From Parabacteroides faecis (lineage in GTDB: Bacteria > Bacteroidota > Bacteroidia > Bacteroidales > Tannerellaceae): 64,000 bases of DNA. The translations under genes were made by a program, and so were the position numbers. Position 1 is the first letter of the stretch. Each line of letters begins with the position of its first letter. Positions 21,056-38,474 of this stretch are shown here, one piece after another. Under the pieces are notes generated by a model. The model was not told the origin of the DNA. It did no database searches and was given only the letters and a program-made list of their open reading frames with translations. The DNA lies in NCBI RefSeq assembly GCF_014647375.1, contig NZ_BMPB01000001.1, forward strand, positions 62,001-126,000, written 5' to 3'.

Positions 21056-21061
21056 TACTGA

Positions 21062-22377: not shown

Positions 22378-22436
22378 TCTCAATTGTACCTAATAGGTTT
22401 TCCTATGGAGAATACAATCGAATGAAAATTTTATAC

Positions 22437-23030
22437 TCAGCAAGAATACATTTTTTTGTATAAAATGAAGAAAATAACAAGGACGGGAAAAGACTCCCGT
22501 ATTTTTTTAATCGAACGTTGTATGGAATTCTGTACCGATTGATAATTCATATCCATTAAAATAGCGATCTCTTCTATCGAAAGTTCTTCCATATAACGAT
22601 AATAGATTATTTCCCGCTGCCGGTCGGTCAACATACTCAGAACTTTTCGAACTGTTTGTTGTAATTCTTTCTGATTTAATGTAACTGTAACCTGTTCTTC
22701 CGCACACGGATCCAGATATTCACCTTCTTCCAGATCGACTTTATCAAAAAACAATTCCCGCTTTAAAAGATTATACAGGTGGTTTTTCAAACAAGTAAAT
22801 AAATAGAATTTGATATTAACCTCCGTTTTTAAACGTAGTCTATCATTATATAGTTTTACATAAACATCATGGATTGCATCTTTAACCAGAGACTCATTAG
22901 AGGTGAACTGAATACCATACCTAAACAAAATATCTGCATAGTTTTTATAGATGAGTTCAAAACTGTCATTATCTCCGTTTCTGAAACTCTTCCAAAGAAT
23001 ATTTTCTGATTTACTGCAATTCATTTCCAT
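22437..23030 (-). CDS. ECF-type RNA polymerase sigma factor (locus B)
   Basis: Taken from the ATG at 23030 the protein has 197 residues; the frame stays open to an ATG at 23126, but those extra residues are not sigma-like. Region 2 is LWKSFRNGDNDSFELIYKNY to VKDAIHDVYVKLYND. Region 4 is LSMLTDRQREIIYYRYMEEL to NYQSVQNSIQRSIKKI. It resembles the sigma factors of SusCD loci in Bacteroidetes. The end is a hydrophobic tail (FPVLVIFFILYKKMYSC). It should activate the locus B operon on release from FecR. The best promoter lies about 330 bp upstream, so the mRNA would have a long leader. Confidence 0.92.
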   Translation of the reverse strand: MEMNCSKSENILWKSFRNGDNDSFELIYKNYADILFRYGIQFTSNESLVKDAIHDVYVKLYNDRLRLKTEVNIKFYLFTCLKNHLYNLLKRELFFDKVDLEEGEYLDPCAEEQVTVTLNQKELQQTVRKVLSMLTDRQREIIYYRYMEELSIEEIAILMDMNYQSVQNSIQRSIKKIRESFPVLVIFFILYKKMYSC

Positions 23031-23437
23031 ATGAGGCATCAAATTTAGGAAAACATTTGAATCCATCAATCCTCTGACTGGATAATAAATAAAAAGAGGC
23101 GTGAGGACTGCTGATATATCTAACATTGAGGCCTTCGACTGCCCTGCTCATTGATATAAACAACAGCTCACACCCTTTTATTTTGAATATTTCCATATGC
23201 AAAAACATAGGGATATAACAAAAACAAGCATGTGAGCGTTCGCTGTCTACTATCCAAAGAGCATGAAAGTGTCGAAGTTTCAATGTTAGGATAATATCAT
23301 AAAAACGCTTCTCATAATAAATAAAATCACCTCATAGCTTAAAATGCCAGAGATTGGTTTACAAAAGTAGGAAGAAGCCTTTAGTTCCACAAATTATGAG
23401 AAACGTTTTTTCCTATTTAACTTCAGGCTTCTACAAT
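23031..23437. other. Long leader/intergenic region upstream of the locus B sigma gene
   Basis: About 400 bp separate the methyltransferase gene of locus C from the sigma start. A promoter is at 23362-23393. Between it and the gene, minus-strand GGTGTGAG (23174-23167) can pair with CTCACGCC (23105-23098) through one G-U pair, closing a loop of about 60 nt, and TCTTTTTATTTATT follows. This could be an attenuator-like fold or chance. No convincing gene is seen. Confidence 0.35.
23362..23393 (-). promoter_or_regulatory. Bacteroidetes-type promoter upstream of the locus B sigma gene
   Basis: Minus-strand TTTG (23393-23390), then 20 bp, then TACTTTTG (23369-23362) match the -33/-7 consensus fully. 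It points at the sigma gene, with an expected start near 23355. Confidence 0.65.
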
Positions 23438-24688
23438 CTAAATATTCCCATTAAATTCTTTTACCGCATCAAACATCGCGATAATATTTTCCGGCGGAAC
23501 ATCCGGTAGTATATTGTGTACGGTATTAAAGACAAAGCCACCTCCGGACGACATGATCTCCAAACGCTCCAGGACTTGTTCACGCACTTGAGCCGGTGTT
23601 CCGTTGTTCAGTGTACCGACGGTTTCTACACCACCACCCCAGAAAGTACAATCCTGTCCGAACTCTTTTTTCAGAAATTCAGGAGACATATCCATAGCAT
23701 TTGTTTGCACAGGGTTGAAGACTTCGATCCCTGCCTCGATCATATGGGGCATCAATGAAGAGATAGAACCACAGGAATGGATAAAGGTGTGCATCTGACT
23801 ATGCGATTTTACATAATCGCATAACTGTTTATGACGGGGTTTGAAAAGGGTTTTATAAGTATCCGGATCCATAAACGGACCGGTTGTCATCCCGAGATCA
23901 TCCCCGAAACGGATAATGTCAACTATATCACCGACCGAAGCACAGACCTTTTCAAGTGTTGCCAGGTGACGTTCCAGTAACTCATCCAATACGCGTTCCA
24001 CCTGGTCCGGATCACAAAGCAGGTCCATCAGGAAATTATCCATCCGGCGCAGGAAAGTTCCCCATTCAAAAAGATTGCAACCGCAAACGATCATCAACGC
24101 CTTATCCGTTGTCTCCCGCAAATGCAAAGCATTTGTTCTCAACTGTTCCCAGAAACCGTCATCGGCAGCATGATCCCAGGGACTGTGCACATAACGCGAC
24201 CACAGGACACGCCCCATCTCTTCATCCAGGCCGTCATAACTATCAGGATAGCCATCCACATAAGGGAAATAGGACTGGTCAAAGAATGTGGCACCTTTCG
24301 GCATCATTGCCAACAGGCGTTTACCGTCGGAATCATAACAATGCCAGGAACCGTTAGGTTGTTCTATGGGATTGAACCAGGCGGGATACAGAGCTTTATC
24401 GCCATTAGCCAGTATTGTCCCCTGCCAGTCGGACGCGTTCACATTAAACGTACGGCCGATATCGAGGACATCGATACCAAACTGATCGATCAACGACATA
24501 TCCGGTTGTGCCAATTGCTGTACGACATCGTATATTTGTACCGGTAAGTCGGTCCGTCCCAACTGTTTCAGCAAATTGGAATAGGCAATTGCCGAAATAC
24601 CTGAACTGGGAGTTGCTCCCATATCGACCGGAACACGGTCGGGCTCTTTATGAGCTATAGCTGATAAAACACGTTCTCTTGAAGTCAT
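23438..24688 (-). CDS. Uroporphyrinogen-decarboxylase-fold methyltransferase (MtaA/CmuA-like), corrinoid-linked
   Basis: This 416-residue cytoplasmic protein starts at the ATG MTSRERVLSAIAHKEPDRVP, the usual N-terminus of the UroD/MtaA superfamily; a TTG three codons upstream is unlikely. The fold markers IIRFGDDLGM (about 259-268) and FIHSCGSIS (302-310) are present. The His-x-Cys pair H304/C306 matches two zinc ligands of MtaA-type methyltransferases. The third ligand region reads GGFVFNTVHNILPDVPPENI, where classical MtaA has a Cys. Haem synthesis is unlikely, because a corrinoid-binding protein, a sugar symporter and a sugar mutarotase lie directly upstream in one operon. I infer methyl transfer to or from the neighbouring corrinoid protein. 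The methyl donor is unknown; an O-methylated sugar is my guess. Confidence 0.8.
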   Translation of the reverse strand: MTSRERVLSAIAHKEPDRVPVDMGATPSSGISAIAYSNLLKQLGRTDLPVQIYDVVQQLAQPDMSLIDQFGIDVLDIGRTFNVNASDWQGTILANGDKALYPAWFNPIEQPNGSWHCYDSDGKRLLAMMPKGATFFDQSYFPYVDGYPDSYDGLDEEMGRVLWSRYVHSPWDHAADDGFWEQLRTNALHLRETTDKALMIVCGCNLFEWGTFLRRMDNFLMDLLCDPDQVERVLDELLERHLATLEKVCASVGDIVDIIRFGDDLGMTTGPFMDPDTYKTLFKPRHKQLCDYVKSHSQMHTFIHSCGSISSLMPHMIEAGIEVFNPVQTNAMDMSPEFLKKEFGQDCTFWGGGVETVGTLNNGTPAQVREQVLERLEIMSSGGGFVFNTVHNILPDVPPENIIAMFDAVKEFNGNI

Positions 24689-24716
24689 AATTTTCAATTT
24701 TCATTTTTTATTATCC

Positions 24717-25745
24717 TCACTCTCTTCCACTCATTCCTATAATGAAAGAGGCAGCAACCAATACGACCAGTCCGGCATACATCCATGCTTTTGTCTTTGT
24801 ATCCGCAGCCTTCCATTCACCCCGGTACAATCCCCAAAGGGTAGCAAAGACAATAGTCAGCGACATCAATATTCCCCAAGCCGTAAACGAGAACTCCCCC
24901 ATCCGGCTTTTCCCCATACCGTAAAAGATAAAGTTGACAAACCAGAGAAAACCCGCCAATCCGCAATACAGGTAGTTGCTTGACACTGCGATATCCTTTG
25001 TCTTTACAAAAGCCTTCAGGTTATTATTCTTTTTCGACAGGAACAAACACCAAAGTGCAGTCGCCAGAAAAGAACCTCCGAACAATACGAAAAAGACAGG
25101 TAACGTCTGAAATAGCGGATCGATTCCCGAAGCGACTAAAGCGGATGAAATACCCGTACCCTGTTCTATACCCAGGGCTTGCGAAGCACCGGTTATTCCG
25201 ACAAAGAAAACCAGCACCAGTCCTTTTCCGAAATTAAGTTCCGGGTTCGCTTCCGGTCCGGCACCTTTATCTTTCCGGTAACCGGCATATCCACTCAAGG
25301 CAATGCCGACTGCGGCAATCAGCAAACCGGCTATCAACATAGTCCCTCCGGATTGTTGCAAGAGAATATTCAAACGCCCGTCGATAGCCGGAGGAATGAT
25401 CGTTCCCAGTATCATCATCAATCCCAGAGAAAGCGAGAAGCCTAACGAAAGGCCCAGATAACGCAGGGAAAGTCCGAAAGTAAGATTACAAATACCGTAG
25501 ATGATCCCCAGTAAAAAGATCCATCCCAATGTCTGTGCCGGGACACCGGACAGCACATTCATAAAGCCCGGGCAAAAAACAGAACATGCCACCAGCGGTA
25601 CGATCATATAAGCAAACAAACTATATATCAGCCAATAGTTTTCCCAAGCCCAGTCACGGGTCTTACCAAAAGGGATCGAAAAACTTCCCGACGAAAATGC
25701 CCCGATGGCTATCAGCCCGATTCCGAATAATAATTCAAATGTCAT
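24717..25745 (-). CDS. L-rhamnose/proton symporter (RhaT) family transporter
   Basis: This 342-residue inner-membrane protein has about ten transmembrane helices and begins MTFELLFGIGLIAIGAFSSGSF. The first helix leads into the conserved SFSIPFGKTRDWAWENYW block. Other RhaT-like parts are GICNLTFGLSLRYLGLSLGF and LWFVNFIFYGMGKSRMGEFS. It should import a 6-deoxyhexose such as L-rhamnose or L-fucose, or a derivative, with protons. The gene lies 28 bp before the methyltransferase and 5 bp after the corrinoid gene. The substrate is uncertain: no rhamnose or fucose isomerase, kinase or aldolase is in the window, so the sugar handled here may be a modified one. Confidence 0.87.
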   Translation of the reverse strand: MTFELLFGIGLIAIGAFSSGSFSIPFGKTRDWAWENYWLIYSLFAYMIVPLVACSVFCPGFMNVLSGVPAQTLGWIFLLGIIYGICNLTFGLSLRYLGLSLGFSLSLGLMMILGTIIPPAIDGRLNILLQQSGGTMLIAGLLIAAVGIALSGYAGYRKDKGAGPEANPELNFGKGLVLVFFVGITGASQALGIEQGTGISSALVASGIDPLFQTLPVFFVLFGGSFLATALWCLFLSKKNNNLKAFVKTKDIAVSSNYLYCGLAGFLWFVNFIFYGMGKSRMGEFSFTAWGILMSLTIVFATLWGLYRGEWKAADTKTKAWMYAGLVVLVAASFIIGMSGRE

Positions 25746-25750
25746 AACTC

Positions 25751-26467
25751 TTATTGGTTTTTTCTTCTAATATTCCGATATGCACAAGAGGCGCTGTTAC
25801 AGGCTACGATTAATTCCAACCAGTTGATATTATCCTGCGGATCACGGGCATAAGCATCCGCCCCGATCCTCTGAGCAAAATCCGCATTTAACGGTGCGCC
25901 ACCGACAACCACTTTGGTCTCGGGATATTTTGCACGGATAGTGGCGATCATCGGTTGCATATTGCTCATGGTTGTAGTCAGCAAGGCAGACATGCCGCAA
26001 ACAGCTCCGGGATGCTCGTCCAATGCCTGGATATATTTCTCGGCCGGCACATCTGTCCCCAGGTCGATCACCTCCCAACCGGAACCTTCCACCATCATAC
26101 CCGTCAGGTTCTTGCCGATATCGTGCAAGTCGCCCATAACGGTACCGATAACAAATACACCTTTCCGTTTGATCTCTCCGTTCTGAAAATAGGGCTTCAG
26201 ATGCTTCATGGCACTGTTCATCGCTTTAGCCGATAACAGCATTTGAGGTACGAATATCTTCCCTTCCGTAAACTTATTGCCTACCCGGTTCATTGCCGGT
26301 ATCAGGGCGTCATTCAATACCGATTGAGGAGATAAGCCGCTCTCCAATGCTTCCCGGGTCAATTCGTCAGCACCCGGTTGTCCTTTCATTGCCGGTGGAT
26401 AGGGCGATGCAAGACTGATCTTGCCGAATTCCACGCATTCGCCAAGTTTAATAATGATGTCGTTCAT
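25751..26467 (-). CDS. Corrinoid (B12-binding) methyl-carrier protein, MtaC/MtbC-like
   Basis: The 238-residue protein has the two-part build of methyl-carrier corrinoid proteins. A four-helix cap is at about residues 35-100 (LNDALIPAMNRVGNKFTEGK, FVPQMLLSAKAMNSAMKHLK). A Rossmann-like B12 domain follows with GDLHDIGKN (112-120), where H115 is the expected lower cobalt ligand, and then MSALLTTTM and VVVGGAPLN. I chose the ATG at 26467; a TTG two codons upstream is less likely. An N-terminal insert (YPPAMKGQPG) and a Cys-containing tail are unusual. It should accept a methyl group on cob(I)alamin and work with the UroD-fold protein. No activase or second methyltransferase is next to it. Confidence 0.9.
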   Translation of the reverse strand: MNDIIIKLGECVEFGKISLASPYPPAMKGQPGADELTREALESGLSPQSVLNDALIPAMNRVGNKFTEGKIFVPQMLLSAKAMNSAMKHLKPYFQNGEIKRKGVFVIGTVMGDLHDIGKNLTGMMVEGSGWEVIDLGTDVPAEKYIQALDEHPGAVCGMSALLTTTMSNMQPMIATIRAKYPETKVVVGGAPLNADFAQRIGADAYARDPQDNINWLELIVACNSASCAYRNIRRKNQ

Positions 26468-26506
26468 GTTCAATAATATTTAAAGCCTATTCTATTTATA
26501 CGTTAT

Positions 26507-26830
26507 TCAGTCTGTATGGAAAACCTCTTCCATAGCCGCCCACCATTCTCCGGGAGCACGGTTCTCTACCGGTTGCTGGCAGGGATCGGTGAGCTTCCAC
26601 CATTCTTGTGTGACCGGATCGGCAGCCATTCGCTGCATATCTTTTTCATAATCATTTCCGATATATTCATAATAGCTGTACAACATTCCGTCTTTATAAT
26701 AAATAGAGTAATTGCGGATATTACACTCGCTGATCATGGCCAGCACCGCCGGCCATACGGCTGCATGCAATTGCTTATATTCTTCCAGTTTTTCAGGCTT
26801 TACGCCGATAACACTTCCATAACGTTTCAT
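26507..26830 (-). CDS. L-rhamnose mutarotase (RhaM) family protein
   Basis: This 107-residue protein matches the RhaM/YiiL family in length and pattern. It begins MKRYGSVIGVKPEKLEEYKQ and continues LHAAVWPAV. It then has IRNYSIYYKDGMLYSYYEY, and VTQEWWKLTDP with the paired Trp, and it ends AAMEEVFHTD. The family interconverts alpha and beta anomers of L-rhamnose, and relatives act on L-fucose, in the cytoplasm. It is the first gene of the mutarotase-corrinoid-symporter-methyltransferase run. This supports import of a 6-deoxyhexose or a derivative. The exact sugar cannot be read from the sequence. Confidence 0.88.
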   Translation of the reverse strand: MKRYGSVIGVKPEKLEEYKQLHAAVWPAVLAMISECNIRNYSIYYKDGMLYSYYEYIGNDYEKDMQRMAADPVTQEWWKLTDPCQQPVENRAPGEWWAAMEEVFHTD

Positions 26831-26867: not shown

Positions 26868-26971
26868 GCAGAAGTAAAAGAGTTGAAGTTTTCAATTTGC
26901 GTGGTTCTTTTGACTGTTTCCGAGATTTGAACAATACTATTCCTATAAAAGGATTAACTGTAAAAGAGGGA

Positions 26972-27066
26972 GTGACAGCGTATGACATCATAATGGCACA
27001 ACAGTGCCACCCTATTGGCATTGTTGTGCCATAGTAGTGACACTGGAGTGCCAATACGGTGGCACT
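26972..27066. repeat. Tandem 22-bp repeats, each a TGGCAC-N4-GTGCCA dyad (array 2)
   Basis: Units begin at 26994 (TGGCACAACAGTGCCA), 27016 (TGGCATTGTTGTGCCA) and 27038 (TGACACTGGAGTGCCA), each followed by six bases. A final half-unit TGGCAC begins at 27060, and a decayed unit begins near 26972. GTGCCA starts at 27004, 27026 and 27048, exactly 22 bp apart. The array lies 140-240 bp upstream of the mutarotase gene. It may be a multi-site operator. In RNA each unit could form a small stem. Confidence 0.85.
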
Positions 27067-27113
27067 ACCTTTAGCATAGGACAAAAGATTCCGTAAGTAG
27101 CAGACTTTCCTGT

Positions 27114-29375
27114 TTACAGCCCTACTTTATCTGTCATCTTAAAACGGAGCGTTCCCCCGTTCAGTAATTCATCGAAAGTAATATATGTCCGGTCGAGTGA
27201 ACGATCATTCAACCAGACTTTCTCTACATAGATATTTTTATCGGACAGATTCTCGGCTGTTATGACAAACTGCCTGCCTGACGACAGGTTTATCACCGCC
27301 CGGTCAAATAAAGGAGCACCTAGTTCGTAACGACCGGATACCGGGTCCATCGGATAAAAACCTAACGAACTGAAAACATACCAGGCACTCATTTGCCCCG
27401 TATCTTCATTCCCGCAGATTCCCGTCGGAGTCGTATCATAAAGAGTTGTCAATACCTCATTGACATATTTCTGTGTCTTATGGGGTTGCCCAACCTCATT
27501 ATACATATAAATAGTATGATGCCCCGGCTCATTGCCATGTGCATATTGACCGATCAGCCCGCTGATATCACCGGATACGGTTTCTCCTTCCAGCGATGAA
27601 TCCATCGTAAATAAGGAATCCAGGCGAGATGCCAGCACCTCTTTACCACCCATCAATTTGGACAGCCCGTCTATATCATGCGGGACAAAGAATGTCCACT
27701 GCCAGGCATTCCCTTCGCAATAATCATCCGACCGGTGTTCCGAGCGCAGAGGATAAAAAGGTGTATGCCAAAGACCGTCTTTAGTCTTTCCCCTTGCAAG
27801 CAAAGTGACAGGATCGATCACATTCTTATAATTCAGGGAGCGGGCCCGGAACTCTTTACTAATATCGGGATGATTTGTCAGAGAGGCGAATCGGGCAATT
27901 GCCCAGTCGTCGAATGCATATTCTAACGTACGGGCTACCGACTCCATTTCCATATCACAGGGCACGTAGCCATATTTCTTATAATTCTCCAACCCGACAA
28001 AGTACCCCATCGAATAGCCGCACGTATCTTTCATGGCTGATTCGACCATTGCCCGCATTGCCAGTTCCGTATCAAAGTTCCTGACACCATTCATATAGGC
28101 ATTAGTTATCAGGGGCATGGAATGGATACCCGTCATCTGATAAGTCTCAACGCCTGCCAATGTCCAGATAGGTAACTGCCCGGCATATCTGAAATGTTCC
28201 AAAGCTGTCCGGATATAATCCTCCATCACGTCAGGACGCAAGACAGCGATCAAAGGACAAGCGGCACGAAACGTATCCCATAATCCGATAACTGCACCAT
28301 AATAGGCAAAGCCATCCGTCTGATGTACCTGGCTGTCGGAACCACGAAACCGGTTATCCACATCAGAAAAAAGCATCGGATACATCATTACATTGTGTAA
28401 GGAGGTGTAAAAAAGCTCTTTCTTTTTCAAATCATTTGTCTCGACTTCTATCTGACCCAATACCGGCGTCCAGCTCTCTGCCGCTTCTTTTTTCAAGGAA
28501 TCGAAATCCTTATCCACCGCTTCTTTCCGGTGATTATCCTCAGCACCCTTCATATCGACTGCAGATATACCGGTTTTAACATCCAGTATCTTTTCCGGAT
28601 TCTCAAAGGTTAGGATCGCTTTCACATTACGTCCTTTCAGGGCAGAGGTCTCTTCTACACATTCGTTATCCAGGAATAACCGACACTCTTTTATCGGAGA
28701 AGAAAATGTCGTATAAAAATAAACATGTTGTTCCGGAGCCCATCCGTTAGTCAACCGGTATCCGCGGACCGTATAATCATCTACTTTTTCAAAAGACGCA
28801 GAAAAGACCGTATCCACATCGTGTTCACGCTGGATTGTACAAGCTCCCTGTGAGCCGTATTCCAGATCTATAATAACAGGGACGGAACCAGCAGACTTAT
28901 ATTTATATCGTTGCAGTCCACAACGTAAAGAAGCGGTCAGTTCCACATTCAGATCGCCGTTATAAAGATCAACCGAGTAATATCCGGGTTCCGCCCACTC
29001 TTTCTCATGGGAAAAATCGGCCTGATAATACTGGGAATATAACTCCGTAAGGCTATCTGTCTTATAGTTCAGGGGAAGAGGCAGAAATAAAATATCCAGA
29101 AAGTCGCCACAGCCTCCGCCGCTTTTATGCACATGGCTGAAGCCGACCAGACTCGTATGGTCATAATGATATCCTGAACTGTTCGCATGTGTATCAGCCC
29201 CTATCTGCACCATTCCGAACGGGACAGAAGCGACAGGAGTGACACATCCGTTCAGCCCGGTTCCAATAAATTTATTCACATACTGATTATTAGACTGAGA
29301 CTGTTCCATTTGGCAGGAGAATAACAAGGTAACCAACAGTAGTGAGAATAATCCGTTTTTATTTAATTTATTCAT
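27114..29375 (-). CDS. GH92 family alpha-mannosidase, lipoprotein (locus C)
   Basis: This 753-residue protein has a lipobox (LLVTLLFSCQMEQ). Family GH92 enzymes are calcium-dependent exo-alpha-mannosidases that cleave with inversion. Markers are the N-terminal YVNKFIGTG and VPFGMVQIGADTH, the mid block DTFRAACPLI, the acid motif YCEGNAWQW (E554 as the likely catalytic acid), and GNEDTGQMSAWYVFSSLGFY near residue 650, which holds the general base Asp. It lies 7 bp after the GH151-like gene and should work on the same glycan in the periplasm or at the surface. The linkage cannot be deduced, although most GH92 enzymes cleave alpha-1,2, -1,3 or -1,6 mannose. Confidence 0.95.
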   Translation of the reverse strand: MNKLNKNGLFSLLLVTLLFSCQMEQSQSNNQYVNKFIGTGLNGCVTPVASVPFGMVQIGADTHANSSGYHYDHTSLVGFSHVHKSGGGCGDFLDILFLPLPLNYKTDSLTELYSQYYQADFSHEKEWAEPGYYSVDLYNGDLNVELTASLRCGLQRYKYKSAGSVPVIIDLEYGSQGACTIQREHDVDTVFSASFEKVDDYTVRGYRLTNGWAPEQHVYFYTTFSSPIKECRLFLDNECVEETSALKGRNVKAILTFENPEKILDVKTGISAVDMKGAEDNHRKEAVDKDFDSLKKEAAESWTPVLGQIEVETNDLKKKELFYTSLHNVMMYPMLFSDVDNRFRGSDSQVHQTDGFAYYGAVIGLWDTFRAACPLIAVLRPDVMEDYIRTALEHFRYAGQLPIWTLAGVETYQMTGIHSMPLITNAYMNGVRNFDTELAMRAMVESAMKDTCGYSMGYFVGLENYKKYGYVPCDMEMESVARTLEYAFDDWAIARFASLTNHPDISKEFRARSLNYKNVIDPVTLLARGKTKDGLWHTPFYPLRSEHRSDDYCEGNAWQWTFFVPHDIDGLSKLMGGKEVLASRLDSLFTMDSSLEGETVSGDISGLIGQYAHGNEPGHHTIYMYNEVGQPHKTQKYVNEVLTTLYDTTPTGICGNEDTGQMSAWYVFSSLGFYPMDPVSGRYELGAPLFDRAVINLSSGRQFVITAENLSDKNIYVEKVWLNDRSLDRTYITFDELLNGGTLRFKMTDKVGL

Positions 29376-29382: not shown

Positions 29383-31374
29383 TCATTTTATAATCTCCAC
29401 AATATCATGTATTTTCAAGTCAGGGACTACAAAAGTAACCTTCCCGTCAACGTAATCGAACCGTAATGGCCGTCCATCCGGTTGTAACAATACCTTCTTC
29501 GGTCTTTCTTCCGACCGGACTACGACGTTGAGATCTCTTAATTCAGGTATCTCATCGATGCCCTTCACACTCCGGTTTGCATGATCGCCGGATGTATTGA
29601 CCAATTGGATCAACATACGTCCGTCCTTTTCCGACGGGATCACATGAACCCGGTGAGAACCTTTCACAGAAACCAGAGGTTCAGGGAAGAGGTTGCCGAT
29701 CAGCTCCGACAGGAAGTCCCTGAATACAGGAGAAGTCGTTGAAAGATAAGATTCACCGATATTCATATAAACACCGGCAACTTTACCTTTACCGTATTTA
29801 TGAATCGTTGCGGCACTACCCGATGGGAAACGGAAATCATTCGTCTGATACAGCCGGGCAAGTTCTTCTGTTCCCTGCTCACAACGAATCTCACGGAATT
29901 TACCTTGTATATCGACAAAACGGTTATCAAACCCCAGGCAGGATGCCCCTCTTTCACCGACTCCCTGCACACCTAATATATCGTCAAAAAGAACGGTCGC
30001 CTCCGAACCTATAACGAGTAGATTTCCTCCTTTTTTCACATATTCCTTCAACCTGGCGATCATTTCCGGTTCCATAACCTCCCACTCGGGAACAACAATG
30101 ACCGGATATTCTTCCATCCTTTTTTCCATGTGGTGGGTCATTAAAACCTCAACAGCCTGCTGACCGTCCAGAAGAGCATTCATAATACCTCTAATCCCAT
30201 TCACACCAAAAGGTCTGTAAATATCATTCACCTTTTGTTTCCAACCTGCCGTAGAATAGAACAAGGCGATTTGCGGGATAGGTTTTATTCCTTTACAATA
30301 GTCTCTTCTTGGCAAGACAAAATCAGCAACTTCCCGCATAATATCAAATGATGCAGGTTGAAAAGACATATCCTCGTTTTGCCTGAAATACATCTGGCAA
30401 CCGCCCCCCAGACTGATTACGGCTGCCGCTTCCTGACAGAGCTGTAAGGCTGTTTTAGGAACAGAATGACGGACAAAACTCCATGCCATCAGGTCGTAAG
30501 GCAATCCTTGTCCGGCTAAACAACGGGCATTCCAATTGGCAGTGTTCAAGGCATCATCCGGATCATAATCGCCGGAGAGGAAGTCCAGTTTTATTCCGGC
30601 CGGAACCGGTTCCGGCATCAAGGCACTAAAAGCCCAATTCGAGCATAACTGGAATTGCGGAGCTACTTTTTTCAATTCTGCCGTATAATGGTCTATATAA
30701 GCTATAAACTTCTTCCGGTTGAATTCCAGCAGTATCTTGTAGTTCGGGTCTTCCGCCACAGTCGGCATATAACTCAAGCCAGTCACCTGTTTAAATTCCT
30801 CCTGAGCCTTCGGGTGGTAATCAGGATAAACCGCCCAGCTTTCTCCGTCGATCCATACACCATCCACTTTATATTTCAATGCCAGTTCCTTGAGCTGGGG
30901 GATCAATAAGCGGTCGGCATAATTACCCCAAAAGCTGGTATTTTGTCCATCCGGTTTACCGTCCGGTGCTCTTCTACCCTCTTCCGGATACAACCGTACA
31001 TAGTTTATATCCATTACTCCTGAATGATGTACATACAATGCCACATTTCTTTTGAAGGTAACCTCCCGGATCAAAGCCAGAGGATCTTTATCATATCCGG
31101 CAGCCTGTTGTCCGACCGCCGTCGGATAAGAAGAGACTCCCGGATGCCCTTTGCTATCCACCTGAATATAGTCAGGCCGCACGGCCTTTAACATGGAGTC
31201 GATCATTCCTCCGGTCAATGTTTTCCCCAGATGTTCATCCGTTAACTGGGAGTGACGGTCGAAATGAACACCCCAAAATGATTCAGAACGTGTTTTTATC
31301 TTATCCTGTGCGTTGAGCGGTAGTGTCAACGTTACAAAAATCAAGACATATATTATATTTTGCAGACTTTTCAT
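29383..31374 (-). CDS. GH151/GHL6-like TIM-barrel glycoside hydrolase, possible alpha-L-fucosidase
   Basis: This 663-residue protein begins with a Sec signal ending LPLNAQ. An N-terminal TIM-barrel follows: SFWGVHFDRHSQL, YIQVDSKGHPGVSSYPT, VDGVWIDGESWAVYPDYH and LDFLSGDYDPDD. After about residue 385 comes a domain of the beta-galactosidase-trimerisation type (YPVIVVPEWEVMEPEM, VKKGGNLLVIGSEA), then a C-terminal beta domain. This order recalls GH151 alpha-L-fucosidases and the related GHL6 family; the assignment is from memory and moderate. Candidate acids lie in GVWIDGESW. It is the first enzyme gene after the susCD terminator, and the downstream deoxysugar mutarotase and symporter fit a fucosidase. 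Confidence 0.62.
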   Translation of the reverse strand: MKSLQNIIYVLIFVTLTLPLNAQDKIKTRSESFWGVHFDRHSQLTDEHLGKTLTGGMIDSMLKAVRPDYIQVDSKGHPGVSSYPTAVGQQAAGYDKDPLALIREVTFKRNVALYVHHSGVMDINYVRLYPEEGRRAPDGKPDGQNTSFWGNYADRLLIPQLKELALKYKVDGVWIDGESWAVYPDYHPKAQEEFKQVTGLSYMPTVAEDPNYKILLEFNRKKFIAYIDHYTAELKKVAPQFQLCSNWAFSALMPEPVPAGIKLDFLSGDYDPDDALNTANWNARCLAGQGLPYDLMAWSFVRHSVPKTALQLCQEAAAVISLGGGCQMYFRQNEDMSFQPASFDIMREVADFVLPRRDYCKGIKPIPQIALFYSTAGWKQKVNDIYRPFGVNGIRGIMNALLDGQQAVEVLMTHHMEKRMEEYPVIVVPEWEVMEPEMIARLKEYVKKGGNLLVIGSEATVLFDDILGVQGVGERGASCLGFDNRFVDIQGKFREIRCEQGTEELARLYQTNDFRFPSGSAATIHKYGKGKVAGVYMNIGESYLSTTSPVFRDFLSELIGNLFPEPLVSVKGSHRVHVIPSEKDGRMLIQLVNTSGDHANRSVKGIDEIPELRDLNVVVRSEERPKKVLLQPDGRPLRFDYVDGKVTFVVPDLKIHDIVEIIK

Positions 31375-31457: not shown

Positions 31458-33215
31458 TTAATAACCCGGATTCTCCGGAGCCAGGTTCGGATTATTGGAT
31501 ATCCTACCTGGAGTAATCGGGAAATAATAGTGTTCTTCCTTAAATACGGAAGGTACGCCCCCCATCGCATTCTCGTTCATTTCAATCCTGAACTTCCCGG
31601 TTTTCACATCATAGAATGTATAAATACCGGAGAAATTACGGGTTATGGCATCAACTGCCGTGTGCCAACGTCTCAAATCCCACCAGCGCTGGTCTTCAAA
31701 AGCAAGTTCCACTTTTCTTTCATGGCGGATCGCATCACGGGTTATATTCGTCAGCAAAGCGATACCGGCTCTTCCCCTTATCTGGTTTACAGCATCCAAA
31801 GCTTCAGAACTCTTACCTAACTCAAATGCTGCTTCCGCGTAGTTCAACAGAATCTCCCCGTAGCGGAAAACGATAAAGTCGACTTTTGTCTTGCCGGCAT
31901 CTACCGGTACCAAACCATCATCCAAATATTTTTTGACATTGAATCCGGTAATTGCTCCTCCAGCATATCCCGCAGCAGAGTAAGAACGCCCCTGAGCAGG
32001 TTTTCCCTGATAAAATCCTGTTGTAACCTTGGTCCCGTTTTCCGTGATAATACCGCCCCAGTTCTCTACGGCTTCTCCTTTCCAGATAGTTCCTTCATAA
32101 TAAACGGAAGCAAAGAAACGGGGATCTTTATTCTTAAAGAATTCATTCAAATCCCAGGGCTGACTCAGAGCCAAGGCCCTGTCGAAAGTTCCCGGCGTTC
32201 CATCTATATTCTCAAAAGACTCTACCATTTCCAGATAAACGGACGTATTACTACCTCCCCATCCGGGACAGAACTGGAACGGAGACATGAACAAATCATA
32301 GTTGCTACCCACTTGTTCGCCTGTCAACTGTTTAGAGAATATTACTTCCACATTATTCTCATCCAGGAACAATTTTCTGAAATTCTCTGCCTTATCATTA
32401 GGTAACTGATTATATAACGCAAAAACATTCGAGTCGATAATCTCTTTGGATGCCTCGTAAGAGGCTTTCCAGAAACGTTCTGCCTCATTCGCCGGAATAC
32501 CTACCAGACCATCGATCTGAACTTTACCCCAGGTTGCAATACTGGCTGCATACATGGCTGCCCTGCTCTTCAATGCCAGTGCAGCATATTTAGTCGGATA
32601 ACCGACCTCATCGCTACTATAACTCTCCGGCAAATCTTTTGCGATCTCATCCATTTCATTTATAATGAAATCATAAACATCGATCTCTTTATCCCTGGAA
32701 ACCAGCAATTCTTCCATCGGAGCATCTATCGCCTGTGCCTTTGTAATAACAGGAATGCCACCGTACCTTTTTACCATGAAGAAATAGGTAATCGCCCTGG
32801 CAAAACGGATTTTACCGGACAACACTTTCTTTTCCGGTTCCGATACGGCTGCGGATGTCTCTATCTTTTCAAGAAATTCATTCGTTTTACGAATGGTTCC
32901 ATAACGCCATTGCTCCAATAAACCGCCATCTTTATTCAGAAAACCGGCTTTCCATGTTGAATACAGAGGATGCCAGTCCCGCCCTTGACGTCCTTCGTCT
33001 GATAATCCGGAAGTAGGGTCTACCTCTTCATAACCGGAACCGTCACGGATCAGAAAATCCAATTCACTGTAGACTCCGCTGATGTATGAATTTATCAAAG
33101 CCTTATCGTTCCATACAGCCTCCTCGGATATGATATCCAACGGTGCCTTATCCATTATATCACAGGAAAAACTTCCACAAAAAAGTAATAAGTAGATAAA
33201 ATATTTTGCTTTCAT
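31458..33215 (-). CDS. SusD/RagB-family lipoprotein (locus C)
   Basis: This 585-residue protein is read from MKAKYFIYLLLFCGSFSC, which gives a proper lipoprotein signal; 22 earlier in-frame codons overlap the end of susC and are not used. SusD markers are GKIRFARAITYFFMVKRYGG near residue 140, YAALALKSRAAMYAASIATW near 205, and FRYGEILLNYAEAAFELG with VELAFEDQRWWDLRRW near the end. The terminus NPNLAPENPGY is typical. It lies 11 bp after susC and should lid that transporter. The genes that follow in transcription order point to a mannose and deoxysugar containing ligand. Confidence 0.96.
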   Translation of the reverse strand: MKAKYFIYLLLFCGSFSCDIMDKAPLDIISEEAVWNDKALINSYISGVYSELDFLIRDGSGYEEVDPTSGLSDEGRQGRDWHPLYSTWKAGFLNKDGGLLEQWRYGTIRKTNEFLEKIETSAAVSEPEKKVLSGKIRFARAITYFFMVKRYGGIPVITKAQAIDAPMEELLVSRDKEIDVYDFIINEMDEIAKDLPESYSSDEVGYPTKYAALALKSRAAMYAASIATWGKVQIDGLVGIPANEAERFWKASYEASKEIIDSNVFALYNQLPNDKAENFRKLFLDENNVEVIFSKQLTGEQVGSNYDLFMSPFQFCPGWGGSNTSVYLEMVESFENIDGTPGTFDRALALSQPWDLNEFFKNKDPRFFASVYYEGTIWKGEAVENWGGIITENGTKVTTGFYQGKPAQGRSYSAAGYAGGAITGFNVKKYLDDGLVPVDAGKTKVDFIVFRYGEILLNYAEAAFELGKSSEALDAVNQIRGRAGIALLTNITRDAIRHERKVELAFEDQRWWDLRRWHTAVDAITRNFSGIYTFYDVKTGKFRIEMNENAMGGVPSVFKEEHYYFPITPGRISNNPNLAPENPGY

Positions 33216-33226
33216 AACCGTACTAT

Positions 33227-36200
33227 TTAAAAAGTAACATTTAATCCTAAAGAGACTGATTTGGTGACAGGATATGACCAACCTCTGGTTGCATCCGGTG
33301 TTTCCGGATCCAATCCGTATTTACGCAACGGATTTATTGCAAATAAGTTTGTTCCGACAACAAACAGACGCAAATTCTCCATTCTTAAGTTACGTATCAG
33401 GCCCTTATCAAAAGTATACCCCAAAGTGAGATTTTTCAGACGCAAATAAGATGCGTTTTTATACCAGTAGTCAGAATTCCAGTTATTGGTGGTCTGACCG
33501 ATCTTTTGTCGCGGGATAATTGCGTTCCGATCATTATTCTCAGGTGTCCAACGTTCATTCCAGATAACTTTGAAAGGAGTTCTTACGCCATCGATATTGA
33601 TATTACCGGATTGCAGTTGCACATAATAATCAGCAGCTCCCTGTGCAAAGACACTCAGGTCAAATCCTTTGTATTTCATATTAAGATTGATACCGTAAAT
33701 GATATGAGGAGTACCGCCGCTTCCAATAGTGCTGGCATCCCGCCAGTCTACTTCTCCGTCATTATTCAAATCGAGTATCTTTATGTCACCCGGACGAAGG
33801 GAGGTGTTCCCCATGCCATCCATATCATATCCCAGATTGTCTATTTCTTCCTGGCTCGTAAATAAACCGTCCGATTTATAGGCATTATAGACATCGATCC
33901 ATTGACCGGACTTTTTCTTCAGACGGATGTCATCCGGATCTGTATAATCAGGTTCATCATAATGGATCCATTTCGAGCGTGACCAGGAAACATTTCCACT
34001 GATGTCATAAGAGAATTCCCCGAAATTACCCCGGTGACCGATCAGGACTTCAAAACCTCTTGTACTCTGGCTATTGATATTCTCACTCGGAAGAGTCGCT
34101 CCAAAGGTATTGGGTAATGACACGACACGGGTTCCTAACATATCATCCCGCTTTCTATAAAAGACATCGATCTCCGAATACAATTTATTATTCAATACGG
34201 ATAAATCCAATCCTACATTATATAATGTCATCGTTTCCCAGGATATATTTGTATTGGCAATACCAGTAGTTGTCAAACCGGGTACCTCTTTTCCTCCCAG
34301 TACATTATAGCCTTCAAACTTATACCCTGTAAGATACTGGAATGCACCGACGGAGTCAAAGCCTGTCTGGCTCACACCGGCACGTAATTTCAAATTATCG
34401 ATCCAGGTCAGGTTATTCTTTATAAAAGCTTCTTCCGACATACGCCAACCGGCAGAAAGGCTGGGGAAGAATCCCCATCTTTTATCCTTCGGGAAGTTCG
34501 GAGAACCATCGTAACGAGCCGTGGCTTCCAACAGATATTTTCCCTGATAAGCATAATTCGCACGAGCAACGAAACTGGCTCTTCCGGATACCGAAGCACT
34601 ACCGTTCGCCTGTTGATTGATGGTACCCCCTGCAAATAACTGGTCGATCGCACTTGTCACATAATTCTCCCTATAGGCCGAAAAGTTTCCATTATTATAA
34701 TCTATAATCTCAACCAGTGCCAAACCATTTATTGCATGGTCTTTGTTAATCACTCTATCATAATTCAAAGAGAACTGACCTGTTATAACCTGATTTTTAT
34801 GAAACTCCTGTTTCAGGGATGTCGGCATCGACTTACCATATAAAGTATAAGTATCCGTTGCATAATCATAATCCCAGATATCATTTTGCTTCGTCCAGTT
34901 CTTCCGGTCGTAAGAGACCTGCTGATAGTTCAACTTCAACTTGGCACTCAATCCCGGAACAGGGCGCACTTTGTAATTAACCGTAAATGCTCCGTTCAAT
35001 GTGTTCTTATATGTTTTATCATATCCACCCAAATCTTCATGTGTATTTATTATGGCATTGAACGGTCCCGGACCTATATGGGGAACCTTTGTCGGATCAG
35101 GAAATGAAGCATGAGAGGTCGGCGTACTATCGAAAAAGTCCATCCAGAACCACTCTTCGGAAGCAGGCCGGTTAGATTGACGGACATCGTCTTTAATCGC
35201 AGAAAGATCAAGAGAAAATGTCAGGTCGGAAGTCAGATTTACATCCAGATTCGAACGTACGTTGAATCTCCGGTAACCGGTATTTCCTCCTTTAAACATA
35301 CCATCCTGACTGAGATAACCTAAGAAAGTATAATACTTAACAACATCGGTACCACCTCTGATCGTCAGATTATACTGTTGTTGAAGTGCTGATTTTTTCA
35401 TAATCTCATCGTACCAGTTCGTACTAGGATACTGAGGATCGTTCCCTGCAAAATATTTTGCAATATCTTCTTCGGAAAATTTAGTCTGATTCTCAGGGAT
35501 ACCTGAATTGATCTGGGCCTCCCTGAAAAGAGTTGCATATTGGCCGGCATTAACCGGTTCCGGGAAATTCGTATAACTTTGGCTGGTCAACGTTCCGTTA
35601 AACGAGATATTCGGCTTACCTGACTGGCCGCGTTTCGTAGTAACCAGGATAACGCCGTTTCCTGCTCTGGCACCATAAATAGCTGCAGATGCATCTTTCA
35701 ATATAGAAACTGATTCTATTTCATTTGCATCTATATTATTGAACGATTGTTCTACGCCATCTACGATGACAAGTGCGCTTCCGAAAGAACGGATATTGAT
35801 ATCCGCAGCGTCAAAACCGGGTTGCCCGCTTTTTTGCTTGGCTATTAATCCGGGCAGACGTCCGACTAAAGCGTTCGTCGTACTTGCCACCGGACTTTTA
35901 ACCAGCTCTTCATTCTTTAAGGTAGCAACAGCACCCGTCACATTCAATTTTTTCTGTGTTCCGTAACCGACAACAACAACTTCATCCAATGATTGAGTAT
36001 CTTCCGTCATCCTGATCGTAAACGTTTTTTGACCATTCACCGGTATTTCCTGGGTATTGAATCCTATATATGAAATTTGTAGGGTTGCTTTATTCGGAAC
36101 TTCCAAAGAAAACTCCCCATCCATGTTGGTGATAGTTCCGTTTGTCGTACCCTTCTCCATTACATTGGCTCCAATAACACCTTCACCCTGATCGTCAATG

Positions 36201-36553
36201 ACCTTCCCTGTTATTTTCACAACATCTTTCTGTTGGTTAACTGTTGCCAGAGACAAGACAACCTGATGGTTTGCTTTCAAGACATAGGAAACGGCAGCCT
36301 GTCGTGCAATCAGTTCCATAATGTCTTTAATATCACCGTTCTTTACATCGATAGATATGATTTTATTCAAATCCGATAGCTCATCATTATAAAAGAAGCG
36401 ATAATCACTCACTTTTTCTATTTCTTTGATTACCTCACGCACCGGCCGGTTCTTCATTGTGAGGGAAATCTGGCTTATTGCTGCGATACTTGAAGAAACA
36501 AGTAGTATTCCACACAAAAAAGCCCGTATTAAAAACTGCTTGATGTTACTCAT
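33227..36553 (-). CDS. SusC/RagA-family TonB-dependent transporter with STN domain (locus C)
   Basis: This 1108-residue protein has a signal peptide (FLCGILLVSSSIAAISQ), an STN domain (about residues 30-98, MKNRPVREVIKEIEKVSDY) and a carboxypeptidase-regulatory domain (from about residue 112, ITGKVIDDQGEGVIGANV). The motif LDEVVVVGYGTQKKLNVTGA leads into the plug (VIVDGVEQSFNNIDANE, ILKDASAAIYGARAGNGVIL). The barrel ends SVSLGLNVTF. It should import the locus C glycan and signal to the FecR encoded 248 bp upstream. The frame is intact. Unlike loci B and D there is no antisense TAnnTTTG at its start codon. Confidence 0.96.
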   Translation of the reverse strand: MSNIKQFLIRAFLCGILLVSSSIAAISQISLTMKNRPVREVIKEIEKVSDYRFFYNDELSDLNKIISIDVKNGDIKDIMELIARQAAVSYVLKANHQVVLSLATVNQQKDVVKITGKVIDDQGEGVIGANVMEKGTTNGTITNMDGEFSLEVPNKATLQISYIGFNTQEIPVNGQKTFTIRMTEDTQSLDEVVVVGYGTQKKLNVTGAVATLKNEELVKSPVASTTNALVGRLPGLIAKQKSGQPGFDAADINIRSFGSALVIVDGVEQSFNNIDANEIESVSILKDASAAIYGARAGNGVILVTTKRGQSGKPNISFNGTLTSQSYTNFPEPVNAGQYATLFREAQINSGIPENQTKFSEEDIAKYFAGNDPQYPSTNWYDEIMKKSALQQQYNLTIRGGTDVVKYYTFLGYLSQDGMFKGGNTGYRRFNVRSNLDVNLTSDLTFSLDLSAIKDDVRQSNRPASEEWFWMDFFDSTPTSHASFPDPTKVPHIGPGPFNAIINTHEDLGGYDKTYKNTLNGAFTVNYKVRPVPGLSAKLKLNYQQVSYDRKNWTKQNDIWDYDYATDTYTLYGKSMPTSLKQEFHKNQVITGQFSLNYDRVINKDHAINGLALVEIIDYNNGNFSAYRENYVTSAIDQLFAGGTINQQANGSASVSGRASFVARANYAYQGKYLLEATARYDGSPNFPKDKRWGFFPSLSAGWRMSEEAFIKNNLTWIDNLKLRAGVSQTGFDSVGAFQYLTGYKFEGYNVLGGKEVPGLTTTGIANTNISWETMTLYNVGLDLSVLNNKLYSEIDVFYRKRDDMLGTRVVSLPNTFGATLPSENINSQSTRGFEVLIGHRGNFGEFSYDISGNVSWSRSKWIHYDEPDYTDPDDIRLKKKSGQWIDVYNAYKSDGLFTSQEEIDNLGYDMDGMGNTSLRPGDIKILDLNNDGEVDWRDASTIGSGGTPHIIYGINLNMKYKGFDLSVFAQGAADYYVQLQSGNINIDGVRTPFKVIWNERWTPENNDRNAIIPRQKIGQTTNNWNSDYWYKNASYLRLKNLTLGYTFDKGLIRNLRMENLRLFVVGTNLFAINPLRKYGLDPETPDATRGWSYPVTKSVSLGLNVTF

Positions 36554-36801: not shown

Positions 36802-37809
36802 CTATTTTCTCTCACTCAGGAGAATCGTGTCTCCAAGTGATTCGTACATGATCGGGGATGTCAGGCTGATGATCTCAAATACGTTATCCAGGCTATTATT
36901 TTTAATGACACCGGAGAAGCGGTACTGTTTGATCTTTTCTGACTTGAATTCGATCTGCACATTATACAAGCGGTTCAAACGTATAGCAATCTCATTCAAT
37001 GTTTCCCCTTTAAATGCCAGTTCATTATCCCTCCACATGCTTGCATAAGCTATATTCTCCGGACTATCAACTACCAATATTTCACTTTTCCGGCTAAAAG
37101 CAACCTGTTGGGCAGGAGACAATACAGTTGAGTGTTTTCCTGCCGTTGCCCGAATACTACCGGAAAACAATGTGGCAACAACACCGTCATCTTCTTTATA
37201 GGCTTTTACATTAAATGTAGTACCCAACGCTTCGACATCCAGTCCTCCGGCTTTTACGATAAAACGATGTTCCTTATCTTTTGCGACTTCGAAATAAGCT
37301 TCTCCACGCAAATCGACAACCCGGTCCTCCACACCATAATTACTATTATATATTATTTGTGTATGAGAATTCAGCCAGACTTTCGTACCATCCGGTAAAG
37401 TAACACTCGCCCGTTGTCCTTTTTCAGCTTCTACCATATACTCTTTAACCTCCGCCATAGACTGACGAGTATATAGATGAGAGGTTATACCGACTACTAC
37501 ACATAAAATAACAGCTGCCGCATATTGTCCCCAACGAAGCAAACGTCTCCTGTTCTGTTTCCGATCGTTCTTCTGCAGTACAATCTTATCTGTATTTATC
37601 CGGTCTCTTATCTGATTGAACATCCGGAGCTGAACCTCTTCGGAAATCTCCTTTGTTGCAGATTCATGCCAGCGCTGGCGATAGAAAGTCAAAATATCTT
37701 CCTGAGAATCAACCTCCCGGAACCAGGCCAACAACTGTTGTTCTTCTTCCGGCGAAGTTTCTCCCCGCATAAAACGATCCAGTAATAATATCTTAGTGTT
37801 ATCCATCAT
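36802..37809 (-). CDS. FecR-family anti-sigma factor (locus C)
   Basis: This is a 335-residue inner-membrane anti-sigma factor. The cytoplasmic start is LLLDRFMRGETSPEEEQQLL. A membrane helix lies near residues 92-108 (WGQYAAAVILCVVVGIT). The FecR domain has VTLPDGTKVWLNSHTQIIY, VVDLRGEAYFEVAKDKEHRF and VEALGTTFNVKAY. The DUF4974 end is AIRLNRLYNVQIEF to YESLGDTILLSERK. It lies after the sigma gene, but a strong terminator separates the two, so its level may be set separately. It should relay binding at the SusC STN domain to the sigma factor, which it may share with the divergent FecR of locus D. Confidence 0.95.
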   Translation of the reverse strand: MMDNTKILLLDRFMRGETSPEEEQQLLAWFREVDSQEDILTFYRQRWHESATKEISEEVQLRMFNQIRDRINTDKIVLQKNDRKQNRRRLLRWGQYAAAVILCVVVGITSHLYTRQSMAEVKEYMVEAEKGQRASVTLPDGTKVWLNSHTQIIYNSNYGVEDRVVDLRGEAYFEVAKDKEHRFIVKAGGLDVEALGTTFNVKAYKEDDGVVATLFSGSIRATAGKHSTVLSPAQQVAFSRKSEILVVDSPENIAYASMWRDNELAFKGETLNEIAIRLNRLYNVQIEFKSEKIKQYRFSGVIKNNSLDNVFEIISLTSPIMYESLGDTILLSERK

Positions 37810-37862: not shown

Positions 37863-37889
37863 AAAAAAAGGATGTCTTTAACATCCTTT
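37863..37889 (-). terminator. Intrinsic terminator between sigma and fecR genes of locus C
   Basis: Minus-strand AAAGGATGT (37889-37881) pairs perfectly with ACATCCTTT (37875-37867) around a 5-base loop, and a T-run follows immediately. The stem includes the last three sense codons of the sigma gene; its stop codon begins the loop. Readthrough would be needed to express fecR from the sigma promoter. Confidence 0.82.
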
Positions 37890-38474
37890 AATCATCAAAA
37901 GCATCAATATCGCCAAATTAGTATCGTCCGAAAGCTTTTGTTTTATAAAACGCAGCGCTCTATACAATTGCGTTTCAACTGTTTTTTCAGAAATAGACAA
38001 ACGGGCTGCAATCTCTTTATTCGACAGATGATGACGTCTGCTTAAATGGAAAATATCCTTTCTAGAAGGGGGAAGTTGTTCAACCAATGTATCAATATAT
38101 TCCTTTAGTGAGTCTGCATCTATATTCTCTTCCATCAGTGATTCGGTCTCTATAGACTGGTCTTTCAAAGTAATATTGACTTGTTCCGATTGCAGACGAT
38201 TTTCTGTTTCTTTATATACCAGATTCCGGGCAATAGCAAATAGATAGGAATCAAACCCCAGTTCAGGATCTATATTTGTGCGTTTCTCCCATATTTTCAG
38301 AAAAACAGTTTGCGTCAGATCTTCAGCCAGGGATTTATCATATAGAAGAGACTGGATAAAATTAAACACCCAGGAACTATATTTCCAGTAAACAACCTCA
38401 AACGCTTTTTCATCTCCCAGCTTCAAACGAAGCAAAACATCCGAGTCTATTGTGGCTATTGCGTGTTTTTTCAT
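37878..38474 (-). CDS. ECF-type RNA polymerase sigma factor (between loci C and D)
   Basis: This 198-residue ECF sigma has region 2 (DEKAFEVVYWKYSSWVFNFI, SLAEDLTQTVFLKIWEKR) and region 4 (LPPSRKDIFHLSRRHHLSNK to LSISEKTVETQLYRALRFIK). It ends in a short hydrophobic tail (NLAILMLLMIKGC). Its gene is the only sigma gene for two flanking FecR/SusC systems: the minus-strand FecR downstream and the plus-strand FecR starting 89 bp away. A perfect -7 element precedes it. It should be held at the membrane by one or both FecR proteins and released when a SusC binds its glycan. Confidence 0.95.
   Translation of the reverse strand: MKKHAIATIDSDVLLRLKLGDEKAFEVVYWKYSSWVFNFIQSLLYDKSLAEDLTQTVFLKIWEKRTNIDPELGFDSYLFAIARNLVYKETENRLQSEQVNITLKDQSIETESLMEENIDADSLKEYIDTLVEQLPPSRKDIFHLSRRHHLSNKEIAARLSISEKTVETQLYRALRFIKQKLSDDTNLAILMLLMIKGC

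Follow-up and report, generated by a model that had tools for sequence, protein, structure and literature searches.

Cytochrome P450 enzymes are monooxygenases that need O2, and three-component corrinoid O-demethylases use an ATP-dependent activase together with an MTII that is a pterin-binding tetrahydrofolate methyltransferase. Typical examples of the three-component systems are MtvB, OdmB, VdmB, and MtoB, which have an MTI/CP/MTII make-up according to the consulted part of PMC13222342. Type 1 mlp clusters, described by Kountz and Balskus (PMC10418091), contain a corrinoid protein and more than one UroD-superfamily protein along with a RACE activase and selenium/sulfur genes, and the same source provides the rule that S-methyltransferases carry a His-Cys-Cys zinc set; its text has no occurrence of 'fucos', 'sugar', 'rhamnos', 'glycos', or 'bacteroid'. 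In the marine-bacterial split methionine synthase/glycine betaine demethylase MtgBCDE (excerpts of PMC12478193), a corrinoid carrier joins demethylation to methionine synthesis; reactivation falls to separate modules, and the donor is glycine betaine, handled by a pfam06253 enzyme. On sugars, a cytochrome P450 oxidatively demethylates 6-O-methyl-D-galactose from porphyran and yields formaldehyde (PMC10033563, in part). A search of the open-licence literature, with subscription papers outside its scope, returned no paper in which sugars are demethylated by a corrinoid system, which does not prove that none exists.

The window analyzed here is a 64,000-nucleotide stretch of the Parabacteroides faecis genome, and it contains a four-gene cassette in the order rhaM-corrinoid-rhaT-MT1, entirely on the minus strand (Table 1). 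A preliminary description had reported four closely packed genes for RhaM, corrinoid, RhaT, and UroD-fold proteins, and both the coordinates and the Pfam matches agree with it. Intergenic gaps within the cassette are 5-39 bp, varying with the choice of start codon, and 283 bp separate the GH92 gene from rhaM. Upstream on the same strand, the SusC, SusD, GH92, GH151-like, and ECF sigma/FecR genes have the make-up of a SusCD polysaccharide utilization locus. The GH151-like gene at 29383..31374 has 6tvk ('Alpha-L-fucosidase') as its sole PDB match (24.4 bits, E 7e-5). The scanned genes flanking the cassette include no rhaA, rhaB, or rhaD to accompany the transporter, so the locus does not have the form of an L-rhamnose catabolic operon. 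Within the window, neither a cobalamin riboswitch nor any other known RNA reached the Rfam gathering score, and no match to a Bacteroides promoter consensus was found; promoter-like sites numbered 26, compared with 20.1 (sd 4.5) in shuffles, and terminator-like sites 14, compared with 8.1 (sd 2.7), and neither count was given weight in the interpretation.

Table 1. Genes of the cassette and of the adjoining polysaccharide utilization locus, in window coordinates.
Feature	Position	Strand	Evidence and remarks
MT1, UroD-superfamily methyltransferase, proposed sugar O-demethylase	23438..24688 (from likely ATG)	-	PF01208 E 1.1e-24
RhaT-family sugar symporter	24717..25745	-	PF06379 E 9e-56; below NCBIfam RhaT cut-offs
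Corrinoid protein, GDLHDIGKN	25751..26473	-	PF02607 + PF02310; likely start ATG 26467 (238 aa)
RhaM-family mutarotase	26507..26830	-	PF05336 E 7.8e-34; NCBIfam YiiL_rotase 45.9 bits, < 99.6 cut-off
GH92 (alpha-mannosidase family)	27114..29375	-	PF07971 E 1.6e-161
GH151-like putative alpha-L-fucosidase	29383..31374	-	PF01120 24.5 bits (cut-off 25.2); PF08532 29.9 bits
SusD-like lipoprotein	31458..33281	-	PF07980 E 3.5e-54
SusC-like TonB-dependent transporter	33227..36553	-	TIGR04056 932 bits
FecR-type anti-sigma factor	36802..37809	-	PF04773, PF16344
ECF sigma factor	37878..38474	-	PF08281, PF04542

The window holds a UroD-superfamily MTI and a small PF02607 + PF02310 protein with DxHxxG, as expected of a corrinoid O-demethylase. 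In the consulted parts of the sources above, the MtvB/OdmB/VdmB/MtoB systems share these components and also the MTII and activator found in intact cassettes, but the present genes differ in their context of sugar uptake genes and fucosidases, in a MetH-type activation domain, and in a UroD-type His-Cys-Cys MTII. Type 1 mlp clusters likewise combine a corrinoid protein with two or more proteins of the UroD superfamily, and the three MTII proteins aligned share their His-Cys-Cys set. They differ in their RACE activase and selenium/sulfur genes, and MT1 lacks the His-Cys-Cys set. As in MtgBCDE, a corrinoid carrier would join demethylation to methionine synthesis, except that the proposed donor is a sugar ether and the enzyme is of UroD type. 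As in the P450 route, whose substrate is algal, a methyl ether would be removed from a sugar after glycan breakdown; unlike that route, the one proposed here would work anaerobically and would retain the methyl group.

MT1 has at least 7,998 relatives at E 1e-3 or better among the 8,000 candidates scored, and D266, D267, H307, C309, and H394 (numbering of the 419-aa reading) are invariant in an alignment of 27 homologues. Its zinc set is His-Cys-His rather than the His-Cys-Cys of S-methyltransferases, which excludes MT1 from type 1 mlp clusters; the His-x-Cys pair of the preliminary description is present, with the correction that the third position is His, not Cys. The AlphaFold2 model (pLDDT 87.5) has the methylcobalamin:CoM methyltransferase 4ay8 as its best Foldseek match (E 2e-11) and also matches UroD decarboxylases. 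A PDB search with the MT1 sequence alone gave no match, and an MT1 profile gave weak matches to 4ay7 and a UroD.

We propose, with a probability of roughly 0.6, that the cassette serves to import an O-methylated 6-deoxyhexose and strip it of its methyl group, the likeliest substrate being an O-methyl-L-fucose freed by alpha-L-fucosidases. Judging from the protein families involved, the released sugar would be imported by RhaT and its anomers equilibrated by RhaM, after which MT1 would take the methyl group off the ether oxygen and load it onto the corrinoid protein's Co(I). In intact cassettes, the His-Cys-Cys MTII would then hand the methyl group to a thiol, most plausibly homocysteine to give methionine, and a free-standing MetH-type activation domain would rescue oxidized cobalt; in the window genome, both of these steps may be supplied by the paralogues encoded on contig C4 or C22.

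The neighborhood of MT1 was surveyed in 78 anchored loci (80 minus L059 and L083, whose anchor ORF was not recovered), with SusC, RhaT, RhaM, GH29, and other families called by single-query bit-score thresholds that may miss distant members. Of the 78 loci, 60 have RhaT or RhaM no more than 5 kb from MT1 and 33 have a GH29 fucosidase in that range, whereas a corrinoid gene is this close in only 8. Comparison of near and far genes in the same loci gave 46/452 vs 0/292 for RhaT, 34 vs 0 for RhaM, and 36/452 vs 6/292 for GH29, with no enrichment of the corrinoid gene around MT1. All 51 fucosidase-like proteins scanned (47 of 51 cluster members, four short ones being omitted, plus 4 from further genomes) match PF01120, and in the spirochaete locus L068 MT1 is accompanied by a mutarotase together with an ABC transporter of the sugar type. 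These counts, together with a stand-alone corrinoid protein in most MT1 genomes, support the part of the earlier proposal that links a corrinoid methyl-transfer module with the uptake of deoxysugars. Conservation independent of SusCD loci had been named as grounds against that proposal; a window-like SusC occurs within 5 kb of MT1 in 1/78 loci, and therefore this objection applies in part, although sugar genes remain the constant partners of MT1. GH92 was rejected as a conserved partner, being near MT1 in only two of the loci listed (L033 and L041), which leaves mannose as the least supported of the sugars suggested at first.

We read the substrate as probably a fucose rather than a rhamnose. 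Identical chemistry on O-methyl-L-rhamnose is a doubtful alternative, although the transporter and mutarotase belong to the RhaT and RhaM families, and the window genome has rhaBATD-like genes (on contig C2) and no FucI above the cut-off. Rhamnosidase families also appear around MT1, with GH106 in L022 and in at least 2 of 61 sampled neighbors and GH78 in at least 2 of 62, in Pfam tallies that cover 123 of the 158 listed neighbor proteins, name at most 25 families each, and may hide single further cases. Against rhamnose stand the GH29 genes in 33 loci and the presence of FucI above the cut-off in five of the six MT1 genomes examined (RhaA in 6/6). Moreover, it is the C22 paralogue of the window genome, not the window cassette, that sits among rhamnosidases; its 74% relative in G270 adjoins a GH78-like gene, and its 59% relative in G007 has no adjoining GH78-like gene and a rhaA-rhaT pair about 5 kb away.

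Three other Parabacteroides loci carry two more genes between those for the corrinoid protein and RhaT, one encoding an MTII (a second UroD methyltransferase) and the other a MetH-type activation protein. The intact order is rhaM-corrinoid-MTII-activator-rhaT-MT1 in L006 and L008, and L007 follows it without a detected rhaM ORF; L010 has GH29-corrinoid-MTII-activator-rhaT-GH95-MT1, and L101, from another family, has the run rhaT-rhaM-MT1-GH29-corrinoid-MTII-activator. The activator of intact cassettes is a PF02965 activation-domain protein, and the MTII proteins, 332 to 335 aa long, have a thiol-type His-Cys-Cys set in the three aligned. The window has lost the MTII gene, along with the greater part of the gene for the activation protein, through a deletion of 1,653 bp that corresponds to 7225-8877 in L006; the approximate deletion junction, from blastn breakpoints and the sequence around it, is 25798..25806 (minus strand). 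The corrinoid protein is consequently fused to the last 16 residues of the deleted protein. An assembly artefact was rejected because 23 distinct 238-aa database proteins among the 120 listed carry the fused form; 21 of the 120 end in an identical 8 residues and 2 more differ by one residue. The second methyltransferase and activator thought earlier to be elsewhere or not needed were thus once part of the cassette, were deleted here, and have paralogues elsewhere in the genome.

This deletion and the fused tail, seen in so many distinct proteins, might mean that the window cassette has been decaying since MTII and the activator were lost. Such decay is unlikely, given a dN/dS of 0.035-0.05 relative to L006 across all four genes, an average that includes time before the deletion, with no internal stop, and given two paralogous sets with MTII and activator genes on contigs C4 and C22. 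With its own genes deleted, the window genome would therefore need these sets for the two steps. Apart from MetH, three corrinoid sets were found in the genome, each of them among glycan-degradation genes. No RACo-type activase turned up next to the window's MT1; G007 encodes a RACo protein alongside its corrinoid gene, and another occurs in one sampled neighbor set.

As for the acceptor, the MT1 genome G233 has a PF02574 homocysteine S-methyltransferase gene at its corrinoid operon, and in G247, where MT1 is represented only by a 35% paralogue, a gene resembling a homocysteine S-methyltransferase by eye adjoins the corrinoid gene. With the His-Cys-Cys set of MTII, this makes tetrahydrofolate, the acceptor first suggested, less well supported, and we read the methyl group as probably passing to a thiol, perhaps homocysteine. 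On the donor side, characterized UroD-superfamily methyltransferases use methoxy-aromatics or haloalkanes (PMC13222342, in part) and methyl-S/Se compounds (PMC10418091, in part), so that an aromatic aglycone or a methyl-sulfur/selenium compound merely travelling with glycans might be demethylated instead. This is improbable, since the recurring partners of MT1 are sugar symporters, mutarotases, and fucosidases, L068 has its mutarotase and sugar-type transporter, and MT1 lacks the zinc set of S/Se enzymes.

A sugar O-demethylase of the proposed kind would depend on a corrinoid protein, and we infer this dependence from co-occurrence at genome level. A stand-alone corrinoid protein is encoded elsewhere in 46 of 49 genomes whose MT1 locus lacks one; these genomes account for 50 of the 80 loci, and in none of the 50 did the neighborhood survey place a corrinoid gene inside 5 kb. 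The background at 1e-30 is 41/295 Bacteroidales genomes (46/295 if five genomes with a match in a 720-1024 aa frame are included), the counts among the 295 being made by hand on open frames of < 400 aa; this is a rough comparison because the corrinoid queries differ, the 49 genomes span several phyla, and completeness is unstated. At 1e-60, a stand-alone corrinoid protein occurs in 10/11 genomes in which MT1 has a match at that same threshold vs 31/295 Bacteroidales overall (P 4e-10), the 11 including 34-35% paralogues in G112, G176, and G247, a 43% match in G228, and a 49% fragment plus a 33% paralogue in G014; all five genomes with MT1 at >= 60% identity have one (P 9e-6). That MT1 is a UroD-fold enzyme without corrinoid use, the corrinoid gene being an incidental neighbor, would suit the 8/78 loci, the absent near/far enrichment, and the fold match to UroD decarboxylases, but is very improbable in view of this co-occurrence and an NCBIfam hemE score of 25.7 bits vs a cut-off of 302.95. 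On the same scores and genome-level coupling, HemE was rejected as an identity for MT1.

O-methylated sugars cap plant, algal, fungal, and invertebrate glycans, and 2-O-methyl-fucose is a component of plant RG-II. The term 2-O-methyl-fucose also occurs in the consulted part of PMC10707938. B12-dependent demethylation is known for plant aromatics; we found no description of it for sugars, and, to judge from these sequence comparisons, a gut bacterium appears to carry genes for applying it to a sugar, probably a form of fucose. A broader possibility, put forward tentatively and at less than even odds, is that anaerobic Bacteroidota and several other phyla possess a family of B12-dependent sugar O-demethylases, in which UroD-type paralogues are matched to glycosidase families (this MT1 to GH29, the C22 type to GH78), share a corrinoid carrier, and pass methyl groups to homocysteine, so that methylated glycans would feed methionine synthesis. 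If true, the corrinoid route would explain the use of O-methyl caps by anaerobes, the P450 route encountered requiring oxygen, would provide a substrate class for a large set of UroD proteins, and would tie glycan degradation in the gut to the supply of vitamin B12 and one-carbon units.

On the minus strand of the window, genes for an ECF sigma factor, FecR, SusC, SusD, a GH151-like protein and GH92 are followed, after a 283-bp spacer, by rhaM, the corrinoid protein gene, rhaT and MT1, a UroD-superfamily methyltransferase read here as a corrinoid-dependent O-demethylase of an O-methyl 6-deoxyhexose. All four cassette genes exceed Pfam cut-offs in the profile scan, and the closest relatives of MT1, at 96% and 92%, are on contigs labelled P. 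goldsteinii and P. gordonii, respectively. The GH92-rhaM spacer contains a hairpin that is long but imperfect (MFE -50.3 kcal/mol, z -4.7), and six diverged partial matches at other sites in the 6.66-Mb genome suggest that it is a dispersed palindromic element. Another SusCD locus, which has an ECF sigma/FecR pair of its own and also encodes F5/8-type, DUF4998 and DUF5000 proteins, lies directly downstream of MT1; in L006, a Parabacteroides locus with an intact cassette, the gene right after MT1 is 409 aa long and matches the one for EPSP synthase in the window.

Alignment to L006 reveals a stretch absent from the window that encodes a 332-aa UroD protein (MTII; PF01208, E 2e-54) together with almost the whole of a 233-aa MetH activation-domain protein (PF02965, E 8e-8). 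The junction is clean, and because the window corrinoid protein continues into the activation protein's final 16 residues, the loss lies on the window's side. Among the matches listed, 23 distinct 238-aa database proteins share this fused form at 98-100% identity, 21 with identical last eight residues and two with one difference. P0146, a 227-aa protein labelled P. goldsteinii, has a different C-terminal end, which by eye seems to read into an undeleted neighbour gene. Genes left in the window cassette show dN/dS values of 0.035-0.05 against L006.

Coordinates of the features discussed
Feature	Sequence	Position	Strand
Second SusCD locus	window	13246-23126	
Imperfect hairpin	window	26965-27105	-
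MTII and activator stretch absent from the window	L006	7225-8877	
Corrinoid operon with UroD-thioredoxin fusion	L016	12425-15350	

Eighty loci with MT1 relatives were taken and 78 of them anchored, with neighbours counted within 5 kb. RhaT was found at 46/78, RhaM at 36/78 and either at 60/78 (27, 22 and 35 of the 40 loci that cover 5 kb to either side), GH29 at 33/78 (21/40) and an AraC-type regulator at 24/78 (16/40); a corrinoid gene was present at 8/78 (6/40), and a corrinoid, MTII or activator gene at 11/78 (8/40). All 51 fucosidase-like proteins scanned (47 of 51 cluster members, four short ones omitted, plus four from fetched genomes) matched PF01120. In a near-far contrast of the same loci, RhaT, RhaM, AraC and GH29 were enriched near MT1; the corrinoid gene was not (P 0.33). 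SSF-family symporters, 8/62 neighbours in the L059-L085 sample, perhaps replace RhaT at some loci. Since the sole non-Bacteroidota locus scanned, from a Spirochaete (L068), pairs MT1 with RhaM and a sugar-type ABC transporter, MT1 is linked to sugar transport rather than to SusCD. Genome G257 carries rhaT, rhaM, MT1, GH29, corrinoid, MTII and activator genes in a single run, with AraC divergent.

Local synteny alone argues against a need for a corrinoid protein, and co-occurrence was therefore tested genome by genome. MT1 matched at 1e-60 in 11/295 Bacteroidales, ten of which had a stand-alone corrinoid protein at the same threshold, as against 31/295 overall (hypergeometric 4e-10, counted by hand); the exception, G228, is 80% complete. 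With MT1 at >=60% identity, the corrinoid protein occurred in 5/5 of these genomes (P 9e-6), and within the genus, where 5/39 genomes hold close MT1 copies, again in 5/5; in one of these, G300, the two genes lie on different contigs. Fifty MT1 loci that have no corrinoid gene at 5 kb or less represent 49 genomes, 46 of which encode a stand-alone corrinoid protein at 1e-30, against a Bacteroidales background of 41/295 (Fisher P 4e-29, a rough comparison).

The window's genome has two further corrinoid methyl-transfer sets. That on contig C22 (L093/L113; corrinoid, MTII and activator, joined by a 355-aa UroD protein) lies next to genes of GH106 and GH78 type as well as a SusC-like one, and that on C4 (L094/L114; a 419-aa UroD protein with 34% identity to MT1, corrinoid, activator and MTII) adjoins GH3, GH38, NAGLU (GH89), GH97 and GH120-like genes, together with one for a SusD-like protein. 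Elsewhere, corrinoid operons at L014, L016, L021, L026 and L099 encode a UroD-thioredoxin fusion (checked against Pfam for L016 alone) along with a CobW-type GTPase, these proteins replacing the His-Cys-Cys MTII; all except L099 also encode a MetH-type activation protein. In one Bacteroidales genome (L103, G007:C18), a stand-alone corrinoid gene beside a RACo activase adjoins, by eye, formate-tetrahydrofolate ligase- and pterin-type methyltransferase-like genes, which would fit a role in a Wood-Ljungdahl-like route.

The cassette parts are individually of known kinds. Searches of a library of openly licensed papers turned up no description of such a cassette, and to our knowledge described O-demethylases differ in being without sugar uptake and fucosidase partners, a MetH-type activator and a UroD-type MTII.

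As to the sugar, a fucose type appears about twice as likely as a rhamnose type, given GH29 beside MT1, GH95 in 2/61 sampled neighbours (one being L010), the window's GH151-like gene and FucI above cut-off in 5/6 MT1 genomes examined. Rhamnose is favoured by RhaA in 6/6 of these genomes, scattered GH106/GH78 neighbours at the sampled loci, and the window's genome, which has a rha gene row and no FucI above cut-off. The RhaT/RhaM family names also point to rhamnose; the window proteins fall below the NCBIfam rhamnose cut-offs, so the names do not identify the sugar. Mannose, offered in the preliminary description, is the least supported, its sole support being GH92, which is not conserved at MT1 loci. 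The C22-type methyltransferase adjoins GH78-type genes in the window's genome and in G270, not in G007, which suggests that rhamnose may be served by a separate methyltransferase paralogue of its own.
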